A DNA stretch of 64,000 bases, from positions 1,178,001 through 1,242,000 of the forward strand of contig NZ_ATVQ01000001.1 of NCBI RefSeq assembly GCF_000420805.1, given 5' to 3'. The notes under the pieces were generated by a model that did no database searches, had not been told where the DNA came from, and saw nothing but the letters and a program-made list of their open reading frames with translations. Below are positions 3,496 through 26,188 of the stretch, piece by piece. This DNA is from Yaniella halotolerans DSM 15476 (lineage in GTDB: Bacteria; Actinomycetota; Actinomycetes; Actinomycetales; Micrococcaceae). The position numbers and the translations under genes are program-made. Every line of letters starts with the position of its first letter. The first letter of the stretch is position 1.

Positions 3496-4278
3496 ATGGA
3501 CCTTCCGATCGAAGCACCTGCGGGCGGGCTACAATGGACACCGCGACCCAAGAGTAACCGGATCCTTATCACTGGTGCCGCCGGGACCGTCGCGAGCCTC
3601 ATCACCGAGCAATTATCCGCGTCATATGAGCTCGTGGGCACCGATGCCGTAACAATCGACAACCCCGACTTTTCCGAAACGTATCAAGCCGATTTGGACG
3701 ACGACGCCCTGTTGGACCGCCTTGTGTCCGAGGCGGACTACGTCTTGCACCTGGCGACCGGTGCACCCGGCGGTAAACACGCGATCTACGCGACTGAAAT
3801 GGACGCGACGAACCGAATCCTTGCCTTGGCCATGGCATATGGCACGCGCAGGGTTATCCTCGCGTCCAGTAATCATGCGGCGGGCTGGCCCGAGCGCGAA
3901 CTCATGGCCGGAACCGGTGACGGACACGTGAAACCCTCAGATCCACCTCGGCCGGACGGACTCTACGGAGCGGCCAAGGCTTATATGGAAGCCCTCGGAC
4001 GGTTTGCCAGCGATGCATCAGGACTTCCCGTCAGCGTGCTTCGCATTGGAACCATGCGAAACAACATGAGCCTTCAAGAGCTCATTGATTCTGACGAAAT
4101 GCCGCACTTAGGCTTCGGTGAGTTCAGAGCACAACGGCTTCAACGCACGTGGCTGACCGGTGATGACCTTGTGAAAATCCTGGTCGAAGAGTTCACGGCG
4201 GAGGAGCCATACCGACTGCGCTACGCAAGCTCATCGCCGGACCAAGAACAGTGGGACCACACCGTTTACAAGCCCTGA
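3496..4278 (+). CDS. NAD-dependent epimerase/dehydratase (extended SDR)
   Basis: A 260-residue short-chain dehydrogenase/reductase. The nucleotide-binding segment is RILITGAAGTVASLI. The acidic residue ending the second strand (VGTDAV) points to NAD. The catalytic YGAAKAYMEALG supplies Tyr and Lys of YxxxK, with the Ser expected in the ILASSNHAAG region. Overall it resembles uronate dehydrogenase/NAD-dependent epimerase proteins acting on sugars; the exact substrate is not clear. The start at 3496 has GAGGAG seven bases upstream. The frame stays open back to 3346, but that stretch is the duplicated non-coding element, so the longer start is rejected. Confidence 0.82.
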   Translation: MDLPIEAPAGGLQWTPRPKSNRILITGAAGTVASLITEQLSASYELVGTDAVTIDNPDFSETYQADLDDDALLDRLVSEADYVLHLATGAPGGKHAIYATEMDATNRILALAMAYGTRRVILASSNHAAGWPERELMAGTGDGHVKPSDPPRPDGLYGAAKAYMEALGRFASDASGLPVSVLRIGTMRNNMSLQELIDSDEMPHLGFGEFRAQRLQRTWLTGDDLVKILVEEFTAEEPYRLRYASSSPDQEQWDHTVYKP

Positions 4279-4306
4279 ACTTACACCGATTGTCCCGGCG
4301 GGTGGG

Positions 4307-5284
4307 TTATAGGGTCGGTTCTCTAGTGGTCTCGGTATAACCGCTCGGGGCGTACTGGACGGTGTGAGACTCACCTTCCTCGGTGATGACGGTCAAGAGA
4401 TCGACGTCATTGGAATAGGAAGCGATTTTTAGCATCATATTTCCGGCCATGAACTGCGCTGCGGGTACGTATGGGCCGCCCTGCCAGGGACCATTTTCGA
4501 TACGAACGACGATCTCGCCAGCCACTGGGGCCTCGAAACTGGTGATGTAACCGTGCGGATCATCGGGAACACATTGCCGATAGTCTGCAACCGAATCGAC
4601 ACCCCCGCAGAGCCCCTGGTACGTGAAATTCATGGAGCGTAGCCAGTCATCGAACCGCTCATCAGCCCAAGCTTCCAGATCGGCCTCACTTGTCGGGGCA
4701 TCTGAGTTGGTTGCCGTAGGAAGTCTTCCGTGGGTAGCTTGATATTCCCCATCCGGTGTTGTGGTCGTGACTTGCAGCATGCCATCGCTGTGCCTGCCGA
4801 TATAACCGTGCAGAATCTCGGCGAGGTAGGGCACGGTGAACACCCTGTCGGGATCATATTCGCCACCACCCCAGGAATCCGGCAACAGCGTGACGATCAG
4901 CTCGCCTTGGCGGGGTGCTTCGATTGTATCTAAGTATGCGATGGGATCATCAGGACTGCATTCCCGGAATTCCTCAAGCGTTGCAAAGGGAGCATCACAT
5001 TCGCCAGAAAAGTTCCCGTTACCCACATTGTCCTTATAGACCCTGTTTAACGTGGTCAGCAGGTGTTCAAGACTTTCGGCAGCACCAGGCCCCTCGGTGA
5101 CTACATCGGTGGCCGGTGAGCTCTCAGGTTCTTCCGAACTACTTTGTTGGTCTGCATCATTTGTGATGACAGTGGCCTCGGTGCGTGCCGAGCTCTGGGC
5201 GTCATTGGTTTCCTCAGGACTCGCGCCGCAGCCTGCGAACATTAAAGCTGCCACGGCGGCGAGAAGCATCGGTACGCGTTTCAT
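4307..5284 (-). CDS. Lipoprotein with two internal repeats
   Basis: A 325-residue exported lipoprotein: positively charged N-terminus, hydrophobic stretch and lipobox FAGC near residue 19, then a Ser/Glu/Thr-rich linker to about residue 70. The rest is a duplication of a ~90-residue unit. Each unit has Cys-(x)n-FREC/YRQC, then PDDP.(A/G)Y(L/I), then EAP..GE(I/L)(V)V, then W.GG.Y, then a closing beta segment. The two Cys per unit are spaced alike and probably form a disulfide. I do not recognise the fold. The gene is convergent with the SDR gene. Confidence 0.78.
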   Translation of the reverse strand: MKRVPMLLAAVAALMFAGCGASPEETNDAQSSARTEATVITNDADQQSSSEEPESSPATDVVTEGPGAAESLEHLLTTLNRVYKDNVGNGNFSGECDAPFATLEEFRECSPDDPIAYLDTIEAPRQGELIVTLLPDSWGGGEYDPDRVFTVPYLAEILHGYIGRHSDGMLQVTTTTPDGEYQATHGRLPTATNSDAPTSEADLEAWADERFDDWLRSMNFTYQGLCGGVDSVADYRQCVPDDPHGYITSFEAPVAGEIVVRIENGPWQGGPYVPAAQFMAGNMMLKIASYSNDVDLLTVITEEGESHTVQYAPSGYTETTREPTL

Positions 5285-18229: not shown

Positions 18230-19441
18230 TTAAGCGTCGGGGTTTTGTGCCCACATGTCCGGACCAAAGACCTCGTAGTGGATCGAAGCGCTTGGCACTC
18301 CCTGATCCATGAGGGTCTTGCGAGCAATCTGCATAAATGGCAGCGGACCGCACATGAACACCTGAGCTTCGGCTGGTAGTTCGACGTCGGATAGGTCCAT
18401 GAAACCTGGTCGAGCCGGGTGCAGGGTAGGAGCTTTTTCGGCGCCTTCCTCGTACCAGTTCTGTGCTCGCGCATCGGACATTGCGAGGACTTGGCGGCGC
18501 AGGCCGTCGTACAGTGCGTGGTGCGAGTGGGTTTTATCGGCGTGGAAGAGACGAACGGTACGGTCCGGATTGCGACGCGAAAGGTCTTCCATGATCGCAG
18601 CCACCGGCGTGATGCCGATACCGGCTGAGACGAGCACCAGGGGAGCCTCAGACTCATCGAGAATGACGTCGCCGGCTGGTTGCGAGACATCCAGGATCGT
18701 GCCCGGTGTGGCGTTTTCGTGTAGCCAACCGGAGACCCGGCCATCAGGGTTGCCGTTGATACCGCGAACGCGCTTAATGGTGACGCGCAGGGTGTCGCCA
18801 CGCGGCCCAGACGAGATGGTGTACTGGCGTGGTTGGCGACGTCCGTCTGGCAGGTCCACGGCGAGACCGACGTACTGGCCGGTGCGGTGGGCCGGAACAG
18901 TTCCCGAAACCGGGGAGAGCAACAGGGAGAAAACTTCGTCGGATTCCTCGAAGCGTTCCACCACACGGTATTTGCGGTAGGGTTCCGCTGGATCGGTCCC
19001 AGCTTCGGCGTAGAGGCGTGCTTCTTCGGCGATGAGTGCGGTGGCGAAGAGCCAGTAGACCTCATCCCAGGCCGTGGCGATTTCCGGGGTGGCTGCATCG
19101 CCAAGGATTTTGGCTACTGCGCCGAGCAGATAGTGCCCAACGATCAGGTATTGCGGTGCGCTAATGCCCAGGGAGACGTGCTTATGGGCGATGCGCTGCA
19201 TGACCGGTGTGAAGTCTGGTGCATCCGGGTCGATCAGGTTCACCGCAAACGCCACGACTGAGGCGGCGAGTGCTTTTGGCTGCTCACCGATGGCCTGGTT
19301 GGCCTCGTTGAAGACGTTGAGGAGTTCGGGGTGGGCCTCGAACATATCGCGGTAGAACAATACGGTGGCGTCATCGGCGATTTCTGCAACGACTCCGGCG
19401 GTTTCTTTAACAACGGCTTCTGATGCGGGTGACAGTTTCAT
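18230..19441 (-). CDS. hmp: Flavohemoglobin (nitric oxide dioxygenase)
   Basis: A 403-residue three-domain protein. The globin domain (1-140) has FYRDMFEAHPELL (B10 Tyr), GEQPKALAASV (distal Gln) and the proximal His in IAHKHVSLGI. The FAD domain has RQYTIS and the NAD domain has VSAGIGITPVAAIMEDL plus a C-terminal FMCGPLPFM. It oxidises NO to nitrate using NADH and O2. AAGGAG abuts an ATG at 19453, too close to serve it; the ATG at 19441 is 12 bases away, so both starts are imperfect. A nested palindrome (19462-19503) sits directly upstream and is a likely NO-sensor operator. Confidence 0.92.
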   Translation of the reverse strand: MKLSPASEAVVKETAGVVAEIADDATVLFYRDMFEAHPELLNVFNEANQAIGEQPKALAASVVAFAVNLIDPDAPDFTPVMQRIAHKHVSLGISAPQYLIVGHYLLGAVAKILGDAATPEIATAWDEVYWLFATALIAEEARLYAEAGTDPAEPYRKYRVVERFEESDEVFSLLLSPVSGTVPAHRTGQYVGLAVDLPDGRRQPRQYTISSGPRGDTLRVTIKRVRGINGNPDGRVSGWLHENATPGTILDVSQPAGDVILDESEAPLVLVSAGIGITPVAAIMEDLSRRNPDRTVRLFHADKTHSHHALYDGLRRQVLAMSDARAQNWYEEGAEKAPTLHPARPGFMDLSDVELPAEAQVFMCGPLPFMQIARKTLMDQGVPSASIHYEVFGPDMWAQNPDA

Positions 19442-19461
19442 GGACGGGTTCATCTCCTTGG

Positions 19462-19503
19462 GACAATGATTCTCTCGACCATTTCGAGAACATCATCATT
19501 GTC
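19462..19503. promoter_or_regulatory. Nested palindrome upstream of hmp
   Basis: The outer arms GACAATGAT (19462-19470) and ATCATTGTC (19495-19503) are perfect complements, and inside them TCTCGA (19473-19478) and TCGAGA (19484-19489) form a second dyad. The block lies just before the hmp ribosome-binding site on the minus strand, so it could be an operator or an mRNA hairpin. It does not match the NsrR consensus I know. Confidence 0.6.
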
Positions 19504-19558
19504 TCCCGTCCGAGAATTCGGCGGTTGGTTTTTCACCGTGTTTATTCAGTGTCCCTAG

Positions 19559-20470
19559 TCAACTCGTGCTCTCCTGTTGGAAATCATCCCAGATCTCTTG
19601 GACGTCGATATCGAAAGCAGTATTCTTGAGCCCGCCAATGTAGTTGTCGAACCATTCTTGTACTTCGTTTGACTGGTAGGCGTCACGCAATGCTTCGTAT
19701 TTCTCCGGCTCGTTTTCTGCAAAACCGGGAGCCGCCGCGATCACCACCGTGTAGGGAAGTTGAGCTTCAGCATCTTCCTCGATAATCAGCGGGTCTGTGG
19801 CGTCGACCTCAACGTCTGATTCGGCGATAAGCCGGGTGAAGGAAAATCCAGCGTCTACGTCTGGAAGCGTCTGTGCTAGTGACTGTTGATCCACTTCGAT
19901 AAATTCGAAGTCACGAGGGTTGTCGATGATGTCTTCTTGTGAAATCTCCGTGACGTCCTTGGAGTCATCGATTGTCAATACTCCTGCCTCATGTAACAAC
20001 AGCAGACCTCGTCCATTATTGGCGCGATCAACCGGGAGGGCGATCTTAGCGCCCTGTGGTAGATCTTCTAGGGCATCGTGGTGCTCTGAGTATATGCCCG
20101 CAGGGGCCTGAAATACGGCGAAAAGTGGTTCGACGTCAAGGTTGTAGTCCCTGTTGAACTGCCGCAAATACGCTAGGTGTTGGAAATAATTGACGTCGTA
20201 TTCCTCGTTAGCCACGACCTGGTTCGGCTGCACGATATCTGTGACATAGGTGGTGTCTAACGTCCAGCCTTCGGCTTCGAGTGTATCTTTTGCGATCTCA
20301 GTGGGCTCTTGGAAGGGACCCGACTCAGTGAGGATCATTGAAATACGCTGTTCATCGTTGTCGGCGAGACCGCATGCGCTCAGTGTTAGTGTGCTTGCAG
20401 CAGCAAGACTGCCAAGGAGCAGTCGTTTCGGGGAGCGGAAAGTGTTCAAAACGTTGCAGAAAGAAATCAC
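19559..20470 (-). CDS. metQ: Methionine ABC transporter substrate-binding lipoprotein (MetQ/NlpA), orphan copy
   Basis: A 303-residue lipoprotein: signal peptide with lipobox LSAC near residue 33, then the NlpA/MetQ fold (TYVTDIVQPNQVVANEEYDV, YFQHLAYLRQFN, ALPVDRANNGRGLLLL). It should bind methionine (or a derivative) at the membrane surface for MetN/MetI, which are not adjacent here. Two close relatives lie at 62749 and 63666 behind metN-metI. Start is GTG with GGAGG six bases upstream; that site overlaps the 3' strand of helix P1 of a SAM riboswitch, so translation is probably shut off when SAM is plentiful. Confidence 0.88.
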   Translation of the reverse strand: MISFCNVLNTFRSPKRLLLGSLAAASTLTLSACGLADNDEQRISMILTESGPFQEPTEIAKDTLEAEGWTLDTTYVTDIVQPNQVVANEEYDVNYFQHLAYLRQFNRDYNLDVEPLFAVFQAPAGIYSEHHDALEDLPQGAKIALPVDRANNGRGLLLLHEAGVLTIDDSKDVTEISQEDIIDNPRDFEFIEVDQQSLAQTLPDVDAGFSFTRLIAESDVEVDATDPLIIEEDAEAQLPYTVVIAAAPGFAENEPEKYEALRDAYQSNEVQEWFDNYIGGLKNTAFDIDVQEIWDDFQQESTS

Positions 20471-20713: not shown

Positions 20714-21298
20714 TTAATTTTTCGTTTTGCGCAGACTCAGACGATATTGTTCCGGATCCCGGTCCAGGTGGCCGGCGATGTGTTGCAAAAAGGGCTGCAA
20801 AAGAACTTGTCCTAATTGGACGAGCATGACCTGCATGACCTGATCTTCGGCCTCGCGAGAGGTGGAGGCGATACCTCGGGAACGCAGATCCTCAATCTGA
20901 TCCAGCGCCATGCGCGTGAACCGCTCGGTGATGTCGGTGCCCTCACCGTTGGTTTCGATCAGCATCATGCGGCGCAAGTAGGCTACGACTAGCGGGTTCT
21001 CATCGACGTGGTCCATGAGGCGCTGGTCCAGTGCTCGCACGACGCCGTCCACGTTTGCGTCGGATGGTTTATAGGCAATCGCTCGTTGAATGCCGTCAAT
21101 AATGTCGTCTTCAACGGCTTGTATCAGGCCAGCTTTGGTGCCAAAGTGGTGAGTGATAAGACCAACCGTGACGCCGGCGCGTGACGAAATCGCGCGCATC
21201 GAGGTGGCATCGGCGCCGTTGAGGGCAAAGAGTTCCAGAGCCACCTGGCGGATGCGTGCCTTAGCGGTGAGATCTGCGTTGAGTTCTGCAGTGGACAT
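20714..21298 (-). CDS. TetR family transcriptional regulator
   Basis: A 194-residue TetR protein. The helix-turn-helix is clear in ALELFALNGADATSMRAISS followed by RAGVTVGLITHHFGTKAGL; the C-terminal ligand domain is not diagnostic. It is divergent from the etfB-etfA-cytochrome-acyl-CoA dehydrogenase operon and the shared ~125-base gap holds a dyad at 21367-21386, so it probably represses that operon and itself, perhaps with an acyl-CoA ligand as in FadR-type TetR proteins (inference). Start 21298 has AAGGTAG upstream; the ATG at 21322 has none. Confidence 0.88.
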   Translation of the reverse strand: MSTAELNADLTAKARIRQVALELFALNGADATSMRAISSRAGVTVGLITHHFGTKAGLIQAVEDDIIDGIQRAIAYKPSDANVDGVVRALDQRLMDHVDENPLVVAYLRRMMLIETNGEGTDITERFTRMALDQIEDLRSRGIASTSREAEDQVMQVMLVQLGQVLLQPFLQHIAGHLDRDPEQYRLSLRKTKN

Positions 21299-21366
21299 AC
21301 GGTCTACCTTATTGGATGGCACAGGCGTCGCTGTTCGATGAACTTAAAAAATATGGGACGCCTAAA

Positions 21367-21386: not shown

Positions 21387-21425
21387 CCATATAGTCCACG
21401 TGAACGACGTCACTTTGGGGTGGTT

Positions 21426-22196
21426 ATGAAAGTCGTAGTGTTAGTCAAGCAGGTGCCGGATACCTATGAGAAGCGTTCGATTGCTTTGGATACGGGTATG
21501 TTGGCCCGTGAGGCGTCGGAGAACATCGTTGATGAGATTGACGAACGCGTGTGTGCGGTGGCTGCGGAGCTGAAAAAGGCTGGCACTGCTACTGAAGTTG
21601 TTGCGGTGACGATGGGCCCGGCAGGTGCTGACAAGGCTATTCGTAAAGTGCTCGCACTGGCTGCCGATAGCGCGGTGCATATTGTTGATGATGGGCTGGC
21701 GGGCTCGGATATGATCCAGACGGCTCGTGTGCTGGCCGAGGCTGCCAAGGATGCTGACCTGATCCTTTCCGGGGCCGAGTCCACCGATGGTGGTGGAGGT
21801 ATGGTTCCGGCGATGATGGCTGAGATTCTCGGTCGCGCTCATATTCCGTATGCTGACTCGATTGAGGTTGCCGAGGGTTCGGTGACGGCTGTGACCAATA
21901 CTGATACACAGAAGCTCACCCTTTCTGCTGCCACGCCTGTGGTGGTGTCGTTGACTGAGAAGGCTGGCGAGCCGAAGTTGCCGAACTTTAAATCCATTCG
22001 TGAGGCCAAGAAAAAAGACATCACGGTGACGTCGTTGGCAGATCTTGGTGTCGCTGCGGGACCGGGGGCGGCGTATGTGCGCAATGTGATGGTGTCGGCG
22101 GCGGAACGGCCGCCGAAAGAAGCCGGTGTGAAGGTTTCTGGTGACACCGCTGCTACTGAACTTGTTGACTTTCTTGCCACTCGGCACTTGATCTAA
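21426..22196 (+). CDS. etfB: Electron transfer flavoprotein beta subunit
   Basis: A 256-residue EtfB/FixA protein: KVVVLVKQVPDT at the N-terminus, the beta-subunit signature region ENIVDEIDERVCAVAAELKK, AMP-site segment MGPAGADKAIRKVLALAADS and LSGAESTDGGGGMVPAMMAE. With EtfA it accepts electrons from acyl-CoA dehydrogenases. Start 21426 follows GGGGTGG by a few bases. First gene of a four-gene operon. Confidence 0.95.
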   Translation: MKVVVLVKQVPDTYEKRSIALDTGMLAREASENIVDEIDERVCAVAAELKKAGTATEVVAVTMGPAGADKAIRKVLALAADSAVHIVDDGLAGSDMIQTARVLAEAAKDADLILSGAESTDGGGGMVPAMMAEILGRAHIPYADSIEVAEGSVTAVTNTDTQKLTLSAATPVVVSLTEKAGEPKLPNFKSIREAKKKDITVTSLADLGVAAGPGAAYVRNVMVSAAERPPKEAGVKVSGDTAATELVDFLATRHLI

Positions 22197-22208: not shown

Positions 22209-23156
22209 ATGACTAAAGTGCTTGCTGTTATAGCTGATGCTGACCCTGCTGAGGTATTGGGTGCCGCCTCGATTGTTGGTGAACCTGTTGCTGTGGTGAC
22301 CCAAACCCCTGATGCGCAGACGCTTTCAGAGCTGGGTGCCGCCGGCGCTACCGAGATTTTTGTTCATGCTGGTCCGGAAGATCAGTTGGGTTCAGCGGTG
22401 GTGGCTGCCGGGGTTGCCGCAGTACGTCACTACGGTGCCTCGCTACTGTTGGCTACGCAGAATCCGGTGAATGCTGCGATCGCTGGACGGATTGCTATCG
22501 GTGCCAAGGGTGCCGTGGCCGTTGATGCGACCGGGTTGTACTGGGACGAAGACGGTCAGGAACCGGTTGCCCAGCACGCGGTATTTGGTGGGGATTACAA
22601 CACCGAATCCACCGTGGAGGGTGGTCTGATGATCGTCACGATCCGTCCGGGTGCTATCGAGGCTCGAAGGGATGCGGTGGCTGATCCTGCCGTGGTGCAC
22701 TCGGATGCTGAGATTTCCACGGCTGTCGGGGCCACGATTGTGTCGGCCGAGGAAGTCGAGGTCAGCGGGGACCGGCCAGCATTGACTGCTGCTTCCGCGG
22801 TGGTGTCGGGTGGTCGTGCGTTGGGTTCGGCAGAGAATTTCTCGTTGATTGAGGATCTGGCGGATCAGTTTGGTGCGGCTATTGGTGCATCGCGTGCTGC
22901 CGTGGATTCTGGGTATGTGCCGCATAATTTGCAGGTGGGCCAGACCGGTGTTGCTGTGTCGCCTGATTTGTATATTGCGGTGGGTATCTCTGGTGCGATT
23001 CAGCACTTGGCCGGGATGCAGACTGCTAAAACCATTATTGCGATCAACAAAGACGAAGACGCGCCAATTTTTGATGTGGCCGACTTTGGTGTGGTGGGGG
23101 ATCTGTTTGAGGTCTTGCCACAGGTTGTTGACGAACTCAAGACTCGTAAAAGCTGA
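22209..23156 (+). CDS. etfA: Electron transfer flavoprotein alpha subunit
   Basis: A 315-residue EtfA/FixB protein. The C-terminal FAD-binding region is standard: [28 protein letters not shown], then [20 protein letters not shown] and [12 protein letters not shown]. The N-terminal half has the expected ETF fold. It starts twelve bases after etfB with AAGGAGT eight bases upstream, so the two subunits are made together. Confidence 0.95.
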
Positions 23157-23161
23157 TATTT

Positions 23162-25018
23162 ATGTCGAAACGTCGCATGGTCGGCTGGCAACCCCTGGCG
23201 GTAGAAAACACTGATGCGCCAACTCCGGCGCCAGCTGACACTGACCCCCAACCTCCCGTTGAGCCAGTTACATCCGAACAAGCCACCTCGGAACCCACAC
23301 CAGCGCCCGCTGCACCGGTAGCTGAAGCACCGGTCGAACAACCCGCAGAACAGCCAGCGGCCAATGTTCAGGCGCCTGCCTCGTCTGGTCCGGTGCAAGA
23401 CCCTGCCGTGGCCCGGCGCCGGATGGCAGGTTGGCAGCCACTCACAGTTGCCAATACTGCCGCACCTGACACTGTTGCTGGTGCCGCTCCGTCCTCTGCT
23501 GCAGAGCAGTCTGTAGCAAGTTCGGCTGAACCAGCTCAAACGCAAGAAGCTCCAGAGCAGGCGATTACCGGTGAGGTTCCGGCGCAAACGGTGCAGTCTT
23601 CGGGTCCGATTCAGGATCCGGATGTTCCGCGTCGTCGGATGGCTGGTTGGAGGCCGTTATCGGTAGCTCATGATGGCCCACCAGCTGTCGTTGCTAGCGG
23701 GACGGCTTGGCCGCAGGCTGGTGTGGCAGAGTCTGAGCCAGTCGTAGCTGCTGAAACAGCTCCTGCTCAAGAGGCGGTTCCGGCAGGGTCAACCAATGCT
23801 GCGCCTGCTCCGGTTACCGAGGATCTGCCACGACGACGGATGCAAGGGTGGCAACCACTTGCGGTAGGCCATCCCGACAGTATTGCTTCACCTGCTGTTA
23901 CTAAAGAGCCTCCTGTTGCTGACCCGCAGCCTGCCAAGCAGCGTATGGACTCGCCAACGCCAGAAACTGCACCGGTGAAGCAGCGTATGGGTGCACCCGC
24001 GGCGTCGTCACCGGTTGCTGAGCCTGAGGTGAAGATGCCGGAAGTGGTGACGCCGCCACCGGCGGCTCAGCCTGCGGCGACCGAGACCGTGGAAAAGGAC
24101 GTCGTCAGGCAGCCATCGAAGCTTCGCAAGGCATTGCTCTCGTTGCTGGGTGTGGCGCTTGTTGCTGCCGGTGTGGTCTTGTTGGCTCAGTGGTTGCGAA
24201 CCTTGGATCCGGTGGCGGAGTTTATTGGTACGTATGATGGCACCCCCACGCATCGGGATGGTGTGACTGCTGGTATCCCCGGTTGGGTTGGTTGGCAGCA
24301 CTTCTTCAACTTCTTCATTATGGTCATGGTGATTCGTTCAGGGTTCTTGATACGCAATCAGGAGCGACCGGAGGCGTATTGGACCCCCAATGCTGGTGGT
24401 TTCTATTCGCCTGGGAAGAAGAACACTCCACAGAAGGTGTCGATCCAGCAATGGATCCACCAGTCGTTTAACGTGCTGTGGGTAGCCAATGGACTGTTCT
24501 TTTACATCATGGTGTTTGCCACTGGCCACTGGATGCGGATCGTGCCGACGAATTGGGATATTTTCCCCAATATTGTCTCGGCTGGGCTGCAGTATGTGTC
24601 GTTGGACTGGCCGGAAGAACACTCGTGGGTGTACTACAACGCCCTGCAGATCATGACGTATTTCCTGACGGTGTTTGTTGCGGCACCGTTGGCGGTGTTG
24701 ACCGGGTTGCGGTTGTCGACTTGGTGGCCACAGCATGCCGGGATCAACAAGGCTTTCTCGTTGCCAGTGGCGCGCAAGATCCACTTTGGCACCATGGTGT
24801 ATTTCATCGTGTTCATCCTGGTGCACCTGTTCTTGGTCTTCACGACAGGTATCCTGTCGAATCTGAACATGATGTTTACCGCCCGCGATGCTGGCGACTG
24901 GTGGGGGATCGGAGTCTTTGCCGTCTCTGTTGCCGTCACCGTTGGTGTTGCCTGGTTGATCAAACCCATCTTTATCTCCCCCATTGCCGAAAAGACCGGA
25001 AAGGTCTCAACACGCTAA
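23162..25018 (+). CDS. ETF-linked cytochrome b with repeat-bearing disordered N-terminus
   Basis: A 618-residue protein in two parts. Residues 1-320 are Pro/Ala/Glu-rich and look disordered, but carry four copies of a (K/R)RRMxGW(Q/R)PLxV motif at 4-14, 85-96, 157-168 and 224-235; two are preceded by SSGP(V/I)QDP. Residues 323-618 form a membrane cytochrome b/b6-type domain (formate dehydrogenase gamma/b561-like) with five or so helices; candidate haem ligands are in QHFFNFFIM, WIHQSFNV, RKIHFGTMVYF and FILVHLFLVF. It starts five bases after etfA and ends nine before an acyl-CoA dehydrogenase, suggesting that it takes electrons from ETF to menaquinone. The function of the repeats is unknown. 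Confidence 0.8.
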   Translation: MSKRRMVGWQPLAVENTDAPTPAPADTDPQPPVEPVTSEQATSEPTPAPAAPVAEAPVEQPAEQPAANVQAPASSGPVQDPAVARRRMAGWQPLTVANTAAPDTVAGAAPSSAAEQSVASSAEPAQTQEAPEQAITGEVPAQTVQSSGPIQDPDVPRRRMAGWRPLSVAHDGPPAVVASGTAWPQAGVAESEPVVAAETAPAQEAVPAGSTNAAPAPVTEDLPRRRMQGWQPLAVGHPDSIASPAVTKEPPVADPQPAKQRMDSPTPETAPVKQRMGAPAASSPVAEPEVKMPEVVTPPPAAQPAATETVEKDVVRQPSKLRKALLSLLGVALVAAGVVLLAQWLRTLDPVAEFIGTYDGTPTHRDGVTAGIPGWVGWQHFFNFFIMVMVIRSGFLIRNQERPEAYWTPNAGGFYSPGKKNTPQKVSIQQWIHQSFNVLWVANGLFFYIMVFATGHWMRIVPTNWDIFPNIVSAGLQYVSLDWPEEHSWVYYNALQIMTYFLTVFVAAPLAVLTGLRLSTWWPQHAGINKAFSLPVARKIHFGTMVYFIVFILVHLFLVFTTGILSNLNMMFTARDAGDWWGIGVFAVSVAVTVGVAWLIKPIFISPIAEKTGKVSTR

Positions 25019-25027
25019 GGAATTACC

Positions 25028-26188
25028 ATGATTCTGGACAACTACAACCCCATCTGGGAAACCGAAGAGCACACTGACCTTCGCGAAATGGCTCGCGACT
25101 TTATCGCCAGTGAACTGACTCCAAACCAAGAGCGCTTCGCCGAAAACCACGAAGTCGACCGGGAGCTCTGGAACAAAGCCGGCGACAACGGCCTTCTACT
25201 GGTCTCAGTGCCCGAAGAATATGGTGGCGGTGGCGCAGACTTCTCCCACGAAGCCGCCATCCTCTACGAACAGGGCCTAGCCGGAGATGATTCTTGGGGC
25301 TACAGCATTCACTCGACCATCGTCGCTCACTACATCGTGGCCTACGGTACCGAAGAACAGAAACAGCGCTGGCTGCCCAGACTGGCAACCGGTGAACTCG
25401 TCGCCGCCATCGCCATGACCGAACCAACAACCGGCTCGGATCTGCAAGCCATCCGTACGACCGGAACCCCCGACGGCGACGACCTGGTGATCAACGGTTC
25501 CAAGACGTTCATCACCAACGGATCCCAGGCCAACCTCATTGTGATTGTGGCTCGCACTAACGACAATCCTGGTGGCAAAGGCGTCTCACTAGTCGTGGCC
25601 GAAACGGACGGTCTCGAAGGATTTGCCCGTGGCCGTGTACTGGAAAAACTCGGTGCTCACGGTCAAGACACCCGCGAACTGTCCTTCACGGACATGCGTG
25701 TGCCAGCAGCAAACATCATTGGTGGGGAGGCCGGCGACGGTCAAGGCTTCCGCCAACTCATGCAGCAGCTGCCACAGGAGCGTCTAGCGGTGGCCATTAC
25801 CGCGGTTGGTCAAGCCGAAGCAGCGGTTCGTCAGACCATTGAATACACCAAGGAACGCAAACTCTTCGGCCAGACCGTGATGGATTTCCAAAACACCAAG
25901 TTCACTCTGGCCGAGTGCGCAACCGAAGTACTGGCTACCAAAACGTTTGTCGACTACTGCATTGCCGAACACGATAAAGGCAACCTGACCAGTGAACAGG
26001 CATCCGCGGCAAAATACTGGGCGACCGACGTCCAGAACTCTGTGCTCGACCGCTGCCTCCAGCTGTGGGGCGGCTACGGGTTCATGATGGAATACCCGAT
26101 CGCCCGCATGTACGCTGGCGCCCGCGTCCAGCAGATCTATGCTGGCACCAACGAAGTGATGAAGGAACTCATCGCCCGCGGGTTCTAA
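25028..26188 (+). CDS. Acyl-CoA dehydrogenase (long-chain/isovaleryl-type active site)
   Basis: A 386-residue flavin acyl-CoA dehydrogenase: AMTEPTTGSDLQAIRTT, FITNGSQANL, RKLFGQTVMDFQNTKF, and CLQLWGGYGFMMEYPI. At the C-terminal catalytic-base position, where many family members have YEGT, this protein has IYAGTNEVMKELIAR. As in long-chain and isovaleryl-CoA dehydrogenases, the base is probably the Glu in QQLPQERLAVAI instead. It is the last gene of the etfBA-cytochrome operon and is the obvious electron donor to that ETF. Chain-length preference cannot be read from sequence. Confidence 0.93.
   Translation: MILDNYNPIWETEEHTDLREMARDFIASELTPNQERFAENHEVDRELWNKAGDNGLLLVSVPEEYGGGGADFSHEAAILYEQGLAGDDSWGYSIHSTIVAHYIVAYGTEEQKQRWLPRLATGELVAAIAMTEPTTGSDLQAIRTTGTPDGDDLVINGSKTFITNGSQANLIVIVARTNDNPGGKGVSLVVAETDGLEGFARGRVLEKLGAHGQDTRELSFTDMRVPAANIIGGEAGDGQGFRQLMQQLPQERLAVAITAVGQAEAAVRQTIEYTKERKLFGQTVMDFQNTKFTLAECATEVLATKTFVDYCIAEHDKGNLTSEQASAAKYWATDVQNSVLDRCLQLWGGYGFMMEYPIARMYAGARVQQIYAGTNEVMKELIARGF

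Follow-up and report, generated by a model that had tools for sequence, protein, structure and literature searches.

An etfBA-Linked Cytochrome b Gene

The window, a 64,000-nucleotide stretch of the Yaniella halotolerans DSM 15476 genome, holds an operon in which etfB, etfA, a cytochrome b gene, and an acyl-CoA dehydrogenase gene follow one another on the plus strand (Table 1). Its nearest named relatives put the host in the Yaniella/Enteractinococcus group of Micrococcaceae. The operon is tight, as the preliminary description had reported, with intergenic gaps of 12, 5, and 9 bases and open reading frames as claimed, and the cytochrome frame encodes a 618-amino-acid protein. At the distinct loci of the genus that were read, etfB and etfA lie upstream of the cytochrome in 9 of 9, and in 7 of these the cytochrome is followed next by the dehydrogenase; within the 1.5-kb flanks of loci L021 and L040, no dehydrogenase was seen downstream. 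These two loci come from a single genus genome (G005) that carries the etfBA-cytochrome unit twice, the second copy having three motifs in its cytochrome and not four. A scan of cytochrome neighbors found etfBA and acyl-CoA dehydrogenase only, and no partner gene for a hydrogenase, formate dehydrogenase, or molybdenum enzyme. Upstream of the operon in the window (positions 18230 to 20470, minus strand) are genes that look by eye like those for a flavohemoglobin and a MetQ-like lipoprotein.

Table 1. Features of the etfBA-cytochrome operon in the window
Feature	Position	Strand	Basis
TetR-like regulator, divergent, possible operon regulator	20714-21322	-	ORF; family by eye
etfB, ETF beta subunit	21420-22196	+	PF01012, 96 bits
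etfA, ETF alpha subunit	22209-23156	+	PF00766, 117 bits
Cytochrome b gene with N-terminal putative disordered arm, proposed ETF:menaquinone oxidoreductase	23162-25018	+	PF01292
Arm, Pro/Ala/Glu-rich, residues 1-320	23162-24121	+	Sequence; weakly conserved between motifs
Motif copy 1, residues 4-14	23171-23203	+	Motif match
Motif copy 2, residues 85-96	23414-23449	+	Motif match
Motif copy 3, residues 157-168	23630-23665	+	Motif match
Motif copy 4, residues 224-235	23831-23866	+	Motif match
Short degenerate copy KQRMDSP, residues 259-265	23936-23956	+	Sequence; KxRMG mini-motifs recur in relatives
Short degenerate copy KQRMGAP, residues 273-279	23978-23998	+	Sequence; KxRMG mini-motifs recur in relatives
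Extra first transmembrane helix, residues 320-345	24119-24196	+	Model helix 4-29; 1kqf_C match begins at model residue 54
Four invariant histidines H380, H433, H541, and H555, probable ligands of two b hemes	24299-24826	+	105/105 relatives
Acyl-CoA dehydrogenase	25028-26188	+	PF00441, PF02770, PF02771

The Arm and Its Repeated Motif

The arm carries four copies of RRMxGW(Q/R)PLxV, at residues 4 to 14, 86 to 96, 158 to 168, and 225 to 235, with an additional arginine ahead of copies 2 to 4, and the element SSGP(V/I)QDP precedes copies 2 and 3; the earlier account of four motifs, two of them so preceded, was therefore accurate. When the arm was shuffled 10,000 times, nine shuffles contained one R[ML]xG[WYIL] and none contained two, compared with four in the real arm. 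Direct DNA repeats of at least 18 bases were not found within the arm, and so the motif copies look as though they have been kept at the protein level and not freshly duplicated. Pairwise identity among nine proteins of the genus is 80% in the motif columns, 41% in the linkers, and 85% in the cytochrome domain. Because the motif is rare in shuffles, lacks an underlying DNA repeat, and is conserved above its linkers, it looks selected as protein.

The motif is also largely private to this gene. All four matches to a DNA pattern for RMxGWxPL in the organism's own genome lie inside the cytochrome gene. Across nine genus genomes, the pattern gave 38 matches, 35 of them in the cytochrome gene (G005 contributing two gene copies), and the remaining 3 equal the number obtained with a reversed control pattern (3). 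One of the nine genomes, which is 71% complete, has zero matches.

A Predicted Six-Helix Cytochrome

PF01292 is the only family found in the window cytochrome (33.7 bits, with a cut-off of 30.1; three relatives score 33 to 49 bits), and the protein has no PF05187, CCG, or [4Fe-4S] domain. An AlphaFold2 model of residues 317 to 618 has a mean pLDDT of 90. Structural comparison of this model with VIA-align placed FdnI of E. coli formate dehydrogenase N first (1kqf_C, Z 12.5 over 172 residues at 3.6 Å) and HyaC of hydrogenase 1 second and third (6g94_A, Z 10.7; 4gd3_A, Z 10.0), with the next rows at 7.5 and rmsd values of 3.6 to 4.1 over the top three, scores to be read with the caution that below roughly Z 13 helical bundles may match by arrangement. 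Foldseek by itself gave only weak matches (best E 0.1, with HyaC sixth), and a sequence search of solved structures returned no useful relative. The window cytochrome shares its core fold and four histidines with FdnI (1KQF) and HyaC; unlike them, it has no dehydrogenase or hydrogenase partner gene, and it has an extra first helix. The last two invariant histidines are 14 residues apart. We take the heme ligands of FdnI to be H18, H57, H155, and H169, on which the equivalence to the window histidines rests, and by order the H433/H541 pair presumably matches the electron-receiving heme of FdnI.

Charge distribution gives a consistent picture of topology. The loops at residues 398 to 432 and 515 to 541 and the C-terminal tail carry a net positive charge in all 105 cytochromes, as does the N-terminal flank in 92 of 105; the outer loops (349 to 379, 455 to 489, and 566 to 580) are net positive in 0 of 105. 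This bias suggests a protein of six helices whose C-terminus and N-terminal arm are both cytoplasmic. The N-terminus of FdnI is also inside. Since the match to FdnI does not include the extra first helix, the shared core would sit in the membrane the other way up from that of FdnI, and the heme of the H433/H541 pair would then face the cytoplasm, where ETF is.

Electron Acceptors in the Genome and the Class

ETF-ubiquinone oxidoreductase (ETF-QO) is a flavo-iron-sulfur protein characterized by PF05187, a domain that the window protein lacks, and the role proposed here for the window protein is the same. PF05187 was not found in the organism's genome, in line with the earlier statement that ETF-QO is absent. 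This genome has a single EtfA match, a search for EtfD, the ETF acceptor of mycobacteria, gave 0 matches, and the CCG domain gave one weak match, located elsewhere in a 960-amino-acid frame.

Among 196 genomes of the class, EtfD was detected in 173; a full orthologue of the cytochrome (E below 1e-60) occurs in 12, none of which has EtfD (hypergeometric 3e-13, kinship ignored). These 12 genomes represent two families of one order and hence few events, so the P value overstates the case. Among the remaining 184 class genomes, 11 have neither EtfD nor this cytochrome. Nine weaker, partial cytochrome matches (E 5e-42 to 6e-56) all occur in EtfD-bearing genomes, and by length they resemble L042, the sole own-genome paralogue scanned, which carries a fused molybdopterin domain (PF00174). 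L042 (G000:C1:1021621-1022130) is one of two further cytochrome b paralogues in the genome, the other being at G000:C1:1000867-1001385. A 1020-amino-acid frame with CCG matches in genome G014 was considered as an EtfD and rejected, as by eye it is a LutA-like protein read through with upstream sequence.

The absence of EtfD from every orthologue-bearing genome suggests that the cytochrome probably replaces EtfD as an ETF:menaquinone oxidoreductase. Given the single EtfA, the lack of a detected ETF-QO or EtfD, and the distribution complementary to that of EtfD, an alternative ETF:menaquinone oxidoreductase, as the preliminary description had proposed, is the best reading of the cytochrome, and gene content gives good support to its role as an ETF acceptor. 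The cytochrome might instead serve some other dehydrogenase and stand beside etfBA by accident, as members of the PF01292 family serve hydrogenases, formate dehydrogenase, and molybdenum enzymes, and 33 of 105 relatives lie away from etfA within the stretch read; we consider this unlikely, however, because EtfD is missing from 12 of 12 class genomes with the cytochrome, no such catalytic partner occurs among the neighboring genes scanned, and the molybdenum-domain paralogue of this genome is encoded by a different gene.

Arms Track etfA among Relatives

The cytochrome domain was matched in 169 of 245 genomes of the family (E 1e-40). For comparison of arms, 105 cytochromes were drawn from named loci, relatives, and the family-wide search, a chosen and not random sample with duplicates removed; 80 regions were taken from the family-wide matches listed, namely, open frames of at least 400 plus part of the short ones, with region L178 left out. 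Dropped from the count were L001 to L006, whose contigs are already represented by six other loci, and L179 to L184, which encode identical proteins. A cytochrome was scored as beside etfA when a same-strand tblastn match to the window EtfA ended no more than 2.5 kb upstream, some loci having a 1.5-kb flank only. A few assignments required judgment. L016, whose arm is broken by frame changes, was counted as armed by eye; L029, with a chance regular-expression match in a short N-terminus, and L132 to L135, with an out-of-gene upstream reading where an arm would be, were counted as armless; and L014 (partly masked) and L010 (an arm without the motif) were counted as without a motif arm. L016 (positions 4130 to 5010), from a Microbacterium genome, has its arm split over two frames by error or decay. 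L010 is a Corynebacterium cytochrome away from etfA with a Pro/Ala-rich arm of about 257 residues.

Motif arms are present on 51 of 71 cytochromes beside etfA versus 0 of 33 elsewhere (Fisher 2e-13, for a chosen sample); the one remaining protein, L140, is armed and lies at a contig edge. The idea that the motif is restricted to cytochromes beside etfA thus holds, as a correlation, across the 105 loci read. Conversely, 20 of 71 etfA-linked cytochromes are armless, which indicates that the arm is not required for the pairing and is at most an aid. Outside this count, the class search added four GLPR-armed cytochromes beside etfA (L220, L222, L223, and L225), L226, which is armed and lies at the edge of a contig, and unarmed cytochromes with no etfA within 1.5 kb.

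Among 50 intact etfA-linked arms, 39 have at least two full motifs, 9 have one (RMxG[WYIL] or GLPR), and 2 have short forms only. The first full motif falls at residues 3 to 35 in the 48 armed proteins scored, with start codons set by rule. The motif originally described, RRRMxGWQPLxV, fits the window protein but does not extend to the wider family: RMxGWxPL is the form of the genus and one close relative (G024), and elsewhere the form changes by clade. Many relatives have RMxGY, which L031 and its kin continue as FRGxPWPP; L108 and L122 have RMxGL or RMxGI; L028 has runs of SRMG; and Arthrobacter relatives, among others, have RRGLPRxxGGEPWPP. L108 and L031 look intermediate, which suggests that the RM and GLPR types derive from one ancestral motif. 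In a quick, midpoint-rooted tree of the cytochrome domain, RM-type arms form one group (38 rows, all armed, support 100), and GLPR-type arms occur on several deeper branches, so that under this rooting the arm probably has an early origin, with a loss in the armless group.

These patterns bear on what the arm might do. With its cationic and aromatic residues, the motif might be a membrane-surface anchor that folds the arm onto lipid, or the arm might be a mere spacer, in either case with no protein partner. The basic and aromatic composition of RRRMxGWxPL and the existence of armless etfA-linked relatives would fit such a role, but the GLPR class of motif (RRGLPRxxGGEPWPP) is by eye unlike a membrane anchor, and a lipid anchor leaves unexplained why arms track etfA linkage, which makes this proposal improbable. 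It is slightly less probable still that the cytochrome accepts electrons from ETF while the partner of the arm is a FadE, either the acyl-CoA dehydrogenase of the operon or another one, so that the donor enzyme is kept at the membrane, since, despite the dehydrogenase being the next gene at 7 of 9 distinct genus loci, no dehydrogenase relative was found within 1.5- to 5-kb flanks at armed, etfA-linked loci L007 to L009, L015, L026, L028, L031, L035, and L037.

Evidence Bearing on ETF as a Possible Motif Ligand

The docking role that the preliminary description gave to the motif was not reflected in a predicted contact between the arm and EtfAB. The modeling drew on relatives whose etfB, etfA, and cytochrome genes lie in one frame, with stops read as glycine. 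In an AlphaFold2 model of the EtfB-EtfA-arm chain of L008, an Arthrobacter relative, the ETF part was predicted with moderate to good confidence, and the arm and its three motifs stayed at block-mean pLDDT values of 26 to 35; this run was of low power, as the alignment had 17 rows, the arm was present in 3 of them, and the chain is an artificial read-through.

Comparison of ETF sequences between motif classes offers a hint at most. EtfA residue 118 is E in 36 of 36 RM-type loci and G in 13 of 13 GLPR-type loci, and D129 is present in 35 of 36 RM-type loci. More broadly, EtfA positions 112, 118, 126, and 129 are W/Y, E, F, and D in most RM-type loci and R, G, Y, and mostly A in GLPR-type loci. 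The corresponding EtfB comparison left out 13 rows of less than 200 amino acids, and L097 was absent from it. Because RM-type arms form one clade, the EtfA class residues are confounded by descent, and the class-specific residues of EtfA and EtfB are suggestive only. Docking of the motif to ETF is plausible. A second type of etfBA in Micrococcaceae (L095 to L098) has no cytochrome directly adjacent; by eye, it adjoins an HtrA-like protease in 4 of 4 loci and a PIG-L-like deacetylase in 3 of 4.

Repeat-Bearing Arms on Mycobacterial and Other EtfD Proteins

The preliminary description regarded a repeat-tethered ETF branch as new. It is not wholly so: a report on Mycobacterium smegmatis describes EtfD as the shown link from ETF to menaquinone, with a 30-kDa disordered C-terminal region bearing interspersed repeats, and an AlphaFold3 model there puts ETF in contact with this disordered region (PMC13083937). 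In Mycobacterium tuberculosis, EtfD coprecipitated EtfB, according to a second report (PMC8593149). The idea of tethering therefore has a precedent.

EtfD (Rv0338c/MSMEG_0690) resembles the window protein in being an integral membrane ETF acceptor, a role that is proposed for the window protein here, with a b heme and a long putative disordered repeat region. EtfD also has a probable menaquinone site, and menaquinone would likewise be the acceptor for the window cytochrome. The two proteins differ in that, in addition to its heme, EtfD contains two CCG domains and two [4Fe-4S] domains, whereas the window protein has PF01292 only; the arm is C-terminal in EtfD and N-terminal in the window protein; the cytochrome cores are unrelated; and the motif letters are KGLGIAAGAKRPG-like in EtfD versus RRMxGWQPLxV in the window protein. 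The repeat-bearing arm of mycobacterial EtfD thus has a counterpart in the four motifs and Pro/Ala-rich arm of the window protein, which would work like it and is not homologous to it.

EtfD tails were compared across 46 fetched loci, which are the best scorers plus long frames and not a random sample. Tails of at least 100 residues occur in 23 of the 46. Twelve of these 23 long tails bear KGLGIAAGAKRPG-like repeats in 2 to 9 copies, 11 of them with a copy no more than 3 residues from the C-terminus. The genomes with such repeats we take to be mycobacteria; families f19, f17, and f38 are, by our guess, mycobacteria-like, Microbacteriaceae-like, and Nocardioidaceae-like, respectively. SLFD repeats occur in 7 of the 23, in 5 to 8 copies; three complete tails (L203, L209, and L213) end in the motif, and the remaining four comprise three truncated where the stretch stops and a masked one. 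Neither motif is present in the other 4 of the 23 long tails. The seven SLFD-bearing loci (L203, L209, L213, L202, L210, L211, and L215) belong to one actinobacterial family, in which the C-terminal tail of EtfD is 300 to 500 residues long, looks disordered, and carries GGSLFDL-type repeats. EtfD tails at L242 to L246 carry the variant repeats KGLGMKGAAKAPG and KGFGMAAGKKRPG.

Two unrelated ETF acceptors would therefore bear multicopy motif arms at opposite termini, and in many of these arms a copy stands at the free end. Reports of such arms on ETF acceptors beyond mycobacteria were not found in searches of an open-licence library.

A Proposed Mechanism for ETF Capture

We propose that the six-helix diheme cytochrome b accepts electrons at the cytoplasmic face of the membrane, with reduced EtfAB as the donor, and that its two b hemes would pass them on to menaquinone, the cytochrome standing in for the EtfD that is missing from this lineage. 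The putatively disordered cytoplasmic arm would be a capture device in which ETF docks weakly at each motif, and several copies at different reach would keep ETF close to the entry heme. We think it moderately probable that this explanation is right as a whole, i.e., that the protein is the membrane acceptor of the only ETF detected and that its arm captures ETF.

A broader proposal, which we advance more tentatively and rate at a little short of an even chance, is that the cytochrome typifies a class of ETF:menaquinone oxidoreductases free of flavin and iron-sulfur clusters, in which an inverted, FdnI-like diheme cytochrome b with a cytoplasmic entry heme accepts electrons directly from ETF with the aid of a multivalent arm, and that repeat-tethered capture of ETF is general and convergent. 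The second part of this proposal draws on the observation that unrelated actinobacterial acceptors, namely, the cytochrome, mycobacterial EtfD, and the EtfD with GGSLFDL repeats, each have motif arms of their own.

Significance

Searches of an open-licence library did not find an acceptor class of this kind. If the proposal is true, then ETF capture could be tested with single peptides in harmless species, and convergence would point to a function for the repeats that the tail of mycobacterial EtfD carries. For the bacteria themselves, it would mean that part of the Micrococcales feeds electrons from acyl-CoA oxidation into respiration via a further class of acceptor.
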